Part shown: piece after piece, positions 6,906 to 10,573 of the stretch
Numbering within the stretch: position 1 is the first letter of the stretch
Layout: each line of letters begins with the position of its first letter
Assembly (NCBI RefSeq): GCF_024714495.1
Contig: NZ_JAMZMJ010000014.1
Span: forward strand, 1-64,000
Length of the DNA stretch: 64,000 nt
Source: Marinoscillum pacificum
GTDB taxonomy: Bacteria > Bacteroidota > Bacteroidia > Cytophagales > Cyclobacteriaceae
Reading direction: 5' to 3'
Notes under the pieces: generated by a model
What the model was told of the DNA's origin: nothing
Databases searched by the model: none
What the model saw: the letters and a program-made list of their open reading frames with translations, nothing else
Translations under genes and position numbers: made by a program

Positions 6906-7882
6906 TTAAGCGGATTTCAAAATACTTTTTCGGGGGTGTTTTTTGTACTTAAACCCAGAAAGCAATAATGATAAATCATTGATGACAGCTGATCCTGTAG
7001 GTAGACTTCCTGCTCCCTTTCCTATGAATGTTTGTTTGCCAGAATAGCTCGCGTCAATTACTATAGCATTGTTTTCATATTCTATTTCAAACAGGTCATC
7101 ATTGGAGTTTATTAGCTCTGGCTGTACTTTGATGCTTGTTTTACCGTTTTTTCGAGTAGCAGTTGCAATAGACTTAATTTTCAATCCCTGACTTTTCGCC
7201 ATTTCATAAAAATGATCCTCCATATTGGTGATTGCTTCCAGTCTTACTTGTTGTAGATCTGTAATGATATCTCCAAAGGCATGATAAGTCAATATGATCA
7301 ATTTGTACAAAGCATCCTTGCCAGAAATGTCCAAGGTTGGATCGCTTTCAGCAAAACCCTTGTCTTGAGCCAATTGCAACGCATCCTCAAATGACAAACC
7401 TTCTTCTCTCATTTTGGAAAGAATGTAGTTGGTTGACCCATTGAGAATTGCTCTGATAGAGGAGATTTCTTGTTGCTTGAAGAACTGCTCCAGATTGTGC
7501 AAAATCGGAATGGATCCTGCCACAGCGGCTTCATATAAGAAAGGAGCTTCAAATTGCTCATGCCATGTGGCTACTTCATCTATGTGTTCAGCAATCATCT
7601 TTTTGTTGGCAGAGATTACCCCTTTTCCAGCTGTCAGAGCAGTTTTGACGATCTCATAGCTTGCTTCAGCATCGTCAGTTAGTTCTACTATGATGTCAAT
7701 CTCTGGATCATTTAACAATTCACTCGCTTCCGTAGTGAAAACGGCTGGATCCAGATCCCGGAGTTTCTCACGGTTTTTAATGCATACTGATTTGATGCGT
7801 ACGTCTAGATGAGAATTCGTTTGCAGGGTTTGATAAAAACCTCTGGCTACTTCTCCAAAACCAAACAATCCAAGGACCTTCG

Positions 7883-7886
<4 letters not shown>
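6906..7886 (-). CDS. hom: homoserine dehydrogenase
   Basis: A 326-residue NAD(P)-dependent homoserine dehydrogenase, which reduces aspartate semialdehyde to homoserine. Seen are a Rossmann start (LGLFGFGEVARGF), the SANKKM segment, the AAVAGSIPIL block and LNGSTNYILSKM with the following EGLSFEDAL-QAQDKGFAESDPT-like region that forms the catalytic domain, including GKDALYKL. It lacks a C-terminal ACT domain and an aspartokinase domain, so this copy probably escapes simple threonine feedback. Its start overlaps the end of metX by 4 bp, making it the third gene of a metY-metX-hom operon that channels homoserine into methionine. Confidence 0.93.
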
Positions 7887-10277
<2,391 letters not shown>

Positions 10278-10291
10278 TCAAACTTGCGGGA

Positions 10292-10411
10292 TTAGCTCAT
10301 ACAACACATACAGCAAGCATTGCTGATGTAATCAGAAACAATAGAGTGATTGGTTTCACTGCCTTGCAATGAAACGTTTGCTTTCGCGAACGAGATTTTG
10401 TTGAATTTCAT
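10292..10411 (-). CDS. putative leader peptide of the met operon, ending CCMCCMS
   Basis: A 39-codon ATG frame in the metY leader. Its last codons are Asn-Ala-Cys-Cys-Met-Cys-Cys-Met-Ser then TAA, so four Cys and two Met codons crowd just before the stop. The first part is unremarkable and polar. The start codon lies only 8 bases after the 3' strand of the riboswitch P1 helix. The stop is followed by an imperfect 9-bp hairpin (TTGATTCAAG/CTTGATCAA) and later by competing GTCA/TGAC pairings before metY. This resembles a translational attenuator sensing charged Cys- or Met-tRNA. The frame and codons are seen; the regulatory role is inferred. Confidence 0.6.
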   Translation of the reverse strand: MKFNKISFAKANVSLQGSETNHSIVSDYISNACCMCCMS

Positions 10412-10419
10412 AACTATCA

Positions 10420-10508
10420 ATTTATCGTTCAGGAATTAGCACCTTCCCGTTTAGGGTGGGGGTTGCTAGCGCTTCTCAGAGCCTGTCTCTCAGCGCTTCT
10501 TTATAAAT
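10420..10508 (-). ncRNA. SAM-I type riboswitch upstream of metY
   Basis: Read on the minus strand, the segment opens with ATTTAT and closes with ATAAAT (P1 pairing). It contains the conserved GCGCTGAGAGAC...GAGAAGCGC arm followed by AGCAACC, then CCC...GGGAAGGTGCTAATTCC. These blocks (GCAACC and GGTGCTAATTCC) are the invariant core of the S-box/SAM-I aptamer. It sits about 20 nt after the predicted transcription start and about 240 nt before metY. No terminator with a T-run directly follows the aptamer; the leader-peptide start codon does, so control may act on translation or through the leader peptide. Confidence 0.93.
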
Positions 10509-10532
10509 CGATCTAGTACCGATTTGAGATGG

Positions 10533-10563
10533 CAAACGTAATACGGAAATTTTAGTTTGCAAA
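10533..10563 (-). promoter_or_regulatory. Bacteroidota-type promoter of the met operon
   Basis: On the minus strand TTTG (10563-10560) is followed after exactly 19 bases by TACGTTTG (10540-10533), a full match to the Bacteroidota primary-sigma consensus TTTG-N19-TAnnTTTG. The expected start of transcription is near 10526, about 18 nt before the riboswitch. Confidence 0.85.
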
Positions 10564-10573
10564 AAATCTCAAA

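Follow-up and report, generated by a model that had tools for sequence, protein, structure and literature searches.

Introduction

Some riboswitches of the SAM-I (S-box) family (RF00162) have the ribosome-binding site in the 3' side of helix P1, according to the available excerpt of one study (PMC2258182). The metY locus of Marinoscillum pacificum described here is similar in that an aptamer of this family precedes a methionine gene, with P1 at a start site. It differs in that the start opposite P1 is that of a leader peptide rather than that of the enzyme gene, in that the competitor of P1 lies on its 5' side (a hairpin designated P0), in that a terminator is missing and in that the aptamer has no P4 in this genus. 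A second input linked to translation has been described for the SAM-I riboswitch SAM-I_Xcc of Xanthomonas campestris, which, in the portion of the report available, also senses uncharged initiator tRNA and works mainly at the level of translation (PMC7270179). The platform described in that portion binds the tRNA directly and frees the Shine–Dalgarno sequence of the met operon, whereas pausing of ribosomes on leader codons is proposed here.

In the TnaC–Rho system of the Escherichia coli tna operon, the free amino acid and the nascent peptide stall the ribosome at the end of the leader, thereby shielding the RNA from Rho. Before metY, a ribosome halted on the last leader codons would shield the RNA in the same way, but its stall would arise from codon starvation. 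In Actinobacteria, cys operons are preceded by short ORFs that have consecutive Cys codons close to the stop and lack a terminator, for which the authors suggest Rho-dependent termination as in tna (PMC1262725, excerpt). The metY leader shares the Cys run near the stop and the lack of a terminator, but belongs to another phylum, and the excerpt mentions no riboswitch before the actinobacterial leaders. Ribosome-mediated attenuation with tandem Cys codons is likewise described for uORFC-8-2 before cysS in Rhodobacterales; unlike the present leader it has an intrinsic terminator, and the accessible text mentions no SAM aptamer (PMC8632094).

Aptamer and Cys leader are each of a known kind. Their serial combination is real, conserved and unusual, with a proposed mechanism that we deduce from structure and codons. 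Searches of PMC gave no paper in which a Cys leader follows a SAM riboswitch, including in the available text of PMC7366714, PMC8079986, PMC8079631, PMC1273637 and PMC9971707; an earlier report in subscription papers or preprints is possible.

The metY locus

The stretch analysed, referred to as the window, comprises positions 1 to 64,000 of contig NZ_JAMZMJ010000014.1 (64,000 nt), and all features given below lie on its minus strand. The locus encodes metY (8853..10178), a member of the O-acetylhomoserine aminocarboxypropyltransferase/cysteine synthase family (TIGR01326, 677 bits, above cut-off; PF01053), followed by a metX-like homoserine O-acetyltransferase (7883..8860; TIGR01392, 302 bits, below the equivalog cut-off of 500) and, as the third gene, a homoserine dehydrogenase (6906..7886; NF004976, 302 bits, above cut-off; PF00742).

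The consensus promoter noticed in an earlier, sequence-only reading of this DNA is of the Bacteroidota type (10533..10566), with a −7 box TACGTTTG at 10540–10533 and, further up, a stretch at 10566–10554 containing TTTG, which we take to be the −33 element of this phylum. By eye, the promoter is seen in the genus too. The motif TAnnTTTG, given as the −7 form of the Bacteroidota promoter in the available part of PMC9723704, is present no more than 60 nt upstream at 34 of the 65 metY loci of leader type.

The SAM-I aptamer proposed in the same reading scores 73.2 bits against RF00162, compared with a gathering score of 44.4 (10405..10512; Rfam span 10509–10405). Its conserved P1 pairs 10512–10503 with 10425–10416, a register unlike that of the Rfam alignment of the window, in which the leader ATG falls within P1. 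With P1 so placed, the ATG at 10411 follows after 4 nt and not after the 8 originally counted. P1 comprises 9–10 bp and ends 4–5 nt before the ATG in 6/6 genus genomes (10 bp and 4 nt in the window). The layout of aptamer and leader stands as first read, but the device begins further upstream, at P0 (10505..10525), a hairpin formed by AAATCGGT and ATCGATTT and supported by covariation. It competes with P1, whose 5' strand serves as its 3' arm, and it has 7–8 bp in all six genomes.

Measured against the four helices of SAM-I, the genus aptamers contain P1–P3, while P4 is replaced by a 6-nt linker (6/6 genomes). In the window (10434–10416) and in L040, L041, L042, L044 and L047 this linker joins J3/4 to the 3' strand of P1. 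Since the score is far above threshold, we treat the P4-less aptamer as a putative variant member of SAM-I; the missing helix may lower its affinity for SAM.

The leader ORF (10292..10411), MKFNKISFAKANVSLQGSETNHSIVSDYISNACCMCCMS, has 39 codons from the ATG at 10411 to the end of the stop at 10292 and matches no NCBIfam family. Its Cys/Met-rich end had been picked out at the start: the peptide closes with ACCMCCMS, the Cys-Cys-Met-Cys-Cys-Met codons occupying 10298..10315. From the stop to the metY start at 10178 there are 113 nt, as first reported, and these contain a hairpin, CTGCCGGCC..GGTCAG (10223..10257), with no U run after it, identified in a consensus fold of five genus sequences (L040 was left out). 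The genome holds three SAM-I sites; those before metY and sulfite reductase have leaders and that before metH has none.

Recurrence of the leader and its Cys signature

Scanning with the metY protein yielded 80 named loci from Bacteroidota, 72 of which have a SAM-I aptamer by Rfam (20, 20, 16 and 16 in the four sets of 20); in five (L056, L057, L060, L085 and L125) it lies some 0.8–1.8 kb upstream of metY. In 65/72 there is a closed ATG ORF of 12–80 codons whose start lies between −8 and +21 nt relative to the end of the aptamer, against 17 in shuffles. At least three Cys in the last 12 codons were found behind 50 of the 72 aptamers (mean 0.2 and maximum 3 over 200 dinucleotide shuffles) and at least four behind 45 (shuffles 0.03), while the reverse complement of the same loci gave no Cys-tailed ORF (0/72). 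Named examples range over Cytophagales (Marinoscillum, Chryseosolibacter, Fulvivirga, Pontibacter, Hymenobacter), Mucilaginibacter and Pedobacter. An explanation of the leader as a chance open frame would fit the unconserved body of the peptide; it is contradicted by the shuffle and reverse-strand controls and by the frame, Cys cluster and stop kept in 6/6 genus genomes, and can be given almost no weight.

It had been stated beforehand that the idea of a leader peptide would be overturned if related leaders had lost the frame or the Cys/Met codons; both are conserved. The motif CCMC, the frame and the stop are kept in 6/6 genus genomes while the body diverges, with 15 nonsynonymous and 3 synonymous codon changes between the window and L047. 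From L041 the window differs by a single codon, a synonymous change of TGT to TGC (Cys). A drifting body with a kept tail is what codon-reading would predict, and not what a functional peptide would. The ORF has the properties of a leader-peptide attenuator in this respect: it is short, its run of pathway-amino-acid codons is kept and the rest drifts. In the 50 Cys leaders, the last four codons are each Cys in 72–76% of cases, a share that does not exceed 14% at positions past codon 9; the last ten codons hold 52% Cys and 9.8% Met, compared with 2.6% and 2.1% in the body.

This distribution bears on the reading in which SAM is the sole signal, the leader ORF merely marking translation (relief of polarity) and the Cys/Met run being incidental or serving to sense metals or thiols. 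Such a reading accords with the Algoriphagus- and Aquiflexum-type loci, which keep an ORF by P1 without a Cys run and are among the 22/72 metY aptamers with no Cys tail (a number that includes 7 without a leader), and with two Bacteroidales leaders, L113 and L125, whose tails are rich in Met and Arg instead of Cys. The roughly 20-fold enrichment of Cys in the last ten codons over the body, its fixed place at the stop and its occurrence before sulfur-assimilation genes but not before metH speak against it, and we regard it as improbable. Because the sulfur-amino-acid tail is conserved, we favour a second sensor, which would respond to tRNA charging.

Several variants were observed in passing. 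In L062, L064, L065, L073 and L126 (Algoriphagus, Aquiflexum and relatives), the ORF lacking the Cys run ends nearer to metY. The Spirosoma leaders L115, L116, L122 and L127 have just 13–17 codons (e.g. MLCIQRCMPCGAY), with P0 and P1 retained. The Met-run variant was considered as a Bacteroidales type on the strength of L113 and L125, but was absent from a later sample of the class, some genomes of which were already in the main set; 28 of its 30 loci were read, 18 had an aptamer core within 900 nt and 13 of these 18 have a Cys tail by eye.

Predicted exclusion of P1 by P0 at the leader start

P0 recurs upstream of leader-type aptamers, its 3' arm being supplied by the 5' strand of P1. The best-helix score over 65 leader-type sites is 15.35, against 12.38 for shuffles, with 19/65 loci only being significant singly (p ≤ 0.05). 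No excess was seen in 47 leaderless SAM sites (10.55, shuffles 10.90; 1/47 singly), a control drawn from 41 of a set of 60 loci (one of the 41 leader-type) and 7 metY loci, with L054 dropped for having too little upstream sequence. In 50 non-redundant leader loci the two arms of P0 covary (matched 14.74, mismatched 12.28; reached in 0/5000 permutations, with relatedness not corrected), as do those of P1 in the same test (14.54 and 12.33), while a control pairing gave 11.41 and 11.34 (2028/5000 permutations).

In modelled energies P0 is favoured: the median of G(P1) − G(P0) is +2.5 kcal/mol, with values from −3.8 to 13.5, and the ligand-free model makes P0 more probable than P1 in 49/64 loci. 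Judging from the range of affinities for SAM, its binding could overturn this lead of P0. The AUG region is unpaired with a probability of 0.60 when P0 forms and 0.33 when P1 forms, and is freer with P0 in 62/64 loci, a difference that is partly built in, as the forced P1 pairs lie there. By its structure the layout is one of start-site sequestration, with the 3' strand of P1 at the start of the first ORF and an exclusive alternative available. The median distance from the end of P1 to the leader AUG is 5 nt (10th–90th percentile 2–9; 64 loci). This tight spacing, together with the mutual exclusion of P0 and P1, leads us to propose that SAM controls initiation at the leader.

The two elements might instead be independent sensors, the aptamer acting on elongation or RNA stability and the Cys leader separately, with the closeness of P1 and AUG reflecting compactness. 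Consistent with this, a further Cys leader in sulfite reductase operons lies some 140 nt beyond the first, before a classic terminator, where it can act without touching P1, and in L204 a Cys-rich ORF lies 112 nt past a canonical SAM-I aptamer (GATAAGTC) before cysH. Independence would not account for the narrow spacing of P1 and AUG over 64 loci, for the association of P0 with leader-type sites and not with the 47 leaderless ones, or for the absence of any terminator that the aptamer could control in leader-type metY loci. We consider it unlikely, if the strongest of the alternatives.

Possible connections of the leader to metY

The early observation that no T-rich terminator follows was borne out. 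In the window, the interval from leader to metY has no U-tailed terminator; the only minus-strand match of the scan (10325–10311) is within the ORF and has a tail with no U run. A U-tailed hairpin in this interval was found in 0/61 leader-type metY loci; the scan took 61 of the 65, four being left out for a spacing above 320 nt. The terminator platform of SAM-I, a U-tailed terminator after the aptamer, is missing from the window and from these loci, and the terminator/antiterminator pair of leader attenuators is likewise not found before metY. Of the seven leaderless metY aptamers, six are followed by a strong terminator 35–50 nt past the aptamer. The leader stands in place of a terminator in metY loci. 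The idea that all leaderless sites use terminators was dropped after a stricter scan found them at 4/60 sites (leader-type and leaderless together); since terminators are so few, the metH sites probably work by other means.

The leader could also act by translational attenuation, in which a pause at the Cys codons would let the ribosome refold the RNA and open the metY start. In the window, placing a ribosome over the Cys run does raise the modelled probability that the metY start is unpaired (0.49 without it, 0.61 with it), and a post-leader hairpin is conserved in two groups, the genus and the Chryseolinea group, where one in a comparable position shows 5 pairs changed on both sides (8 loci; L053, L056, L057, L060 and L118 left out). 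Over 62 loci, however, a stalled ribosome makes no difference to how free the start is (0.634 with it, 0.638 without), and the start opens by more than 0.1 in 2, the window being one of them. A general coupling of the stalled ribosome to the metY start was rejected on these values, and translational attenuation appears an unlikely account, though a somewhat likelier one than SAM as sole signal.

Two further features were looked for. In the Chryseolinea group the Cys codons can be seen by eye to pair with RNA further downstream (CAGCAACA), but such pairing is not supported as a general switch (17.92 versus 17.52, 262/2000 permutations, 50 Cys leaders), and a C-rich, rut-like stretch is not apparent after the leader, the best excess of C over G being 10.1 compared with 11.5 in coding sequence. 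Rho is encoded in the genome. With no terminator, no general coupling to the start and no general pairing of the Cys codons, and given the likeness to the actinobacterial cys leaders, Rho is favoured; by this elimination we suggest with modest confidence that the leader acts on metY through Rho-dependent termination.

Proposed mechanism

The sequence-only reading had offered two possibilities: a SAM and a tRNA sensor arranged serially, or a peptide whose translation is controlled by SAM and then acts on metY. The evidence favours both together, as a SAM-gated leader-peptide attenuator in which two sensors in series would control metY, a reading to which we assign a probability of about 0.68 from sequence-based evidence. 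The transcript would start just upstream of P0, as the architecture suggests. When SAM is absent, P0 would form first and occupy the 5' strand of P1, so that ribosomes could reach the A/U-rich stretch ahead of the leader AUG; when SAM is present, aptamer P1 would form instead, pairing up to 4 nt before the AUG, and the leader would remain untranslated. A ribosome translating the leader would reach the terminal Cys (and Met) codons and, as their signature suggests, pause there if charged Cys-tRNA is scarce. Held at the end of the ORF, it would let transcription reach metY, most probably by keeping Rho off the RNA downstream, while lack of leader translation or rapid release would lead to termination. 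In such a scheme low SAM together with low cysteine would switch metY on, the sign of the response to cysteine being part of the proposal.

If correct, the riboswitch would control a sensor and not a gene, and the whole would be a natural RNA device with two inputs, widespread in occurrence, whose riboswitch gates a sensor based on the ribosome. It would also give a role to a short, unannotated ORF in many genomes. Bacteroidota make little use of Shine–Dalgarno sites, and a translational riboswitch platform of this kind would fit that habit. The logic by which SAM and cysteine are integrated is directly open to reporter assays.

Genes preceded by the leader

Among 134 SAM-I sites, collected by aptamer alone or by genome and with genes named by short motifs, a leader with at least three tail Cys directly follows the aptamer before metY (19/26), sulfite reductase (6/6), metZ-like genes (4/12) and unassigned genes (6/18, a class that includes the metY sites L047 and L161, missed by motif naming). 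No Cys leader follows the aptamer at metH (0/49), CGS/CGL (0/12), metX (0/5), hom (0/2), cysH (0/2), metE (0/1) or metF (0/1). We consider it probable, though held a little less firmly than the reading of the metY locus itself, that in several Bacteroidota orders SAM, via a 5' competitor hairpin, gates the entry of ribosomes to a leader that reads Cys and Met, providing layered control by SAM and then charged tRNA of sulfur-assimilation genes with no intrinsic terminator, while the methionine genes of these genomes keep SAM alone. The SAM regulon of Bacteroidota would then be split into sulfide-incorporating genes with a Cys sensor and methylating or recycling genes without one.

In the sulfite reductase operons of the genus (L002 1501–1940; also L034, L036, L038 and L046), a SAM-I aptamer with P0 is followed by two tandem Cys leaders and then a terminator before the gene, found by script in 4/5 and by eye in the fifth (L036). 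A few codons past the second Cys run of L002, L034 and L038, the motif TCCCGG or CCCGG can pair, by eye, with the 5' arm of the terminator, which is, to judge from these motifs, a classic attenuator layout. The same three loci have a long inverted repeat (of the GGTGT..ACACC type) across the promoter region, upstream of the aptamer.

SAM aptamers also precede proteins of 160–173 residues in L182 (1718–2200), L185 (1759–2250) and L166, which are candidate sulfur genes; the L182 protein matches no Pfam or NCBIfam family, and in L185 and L166 a Cys-tailed leader lies between aptamer and gene. A 311-residue protein without a Pfam family in L165 (1879–2814) and, judged by its sequence, a SusC-like receptor in L210 are both situated behind a SAM aptamer and Cys leader and are perhaps involved in the uptake of sulfur compounds.
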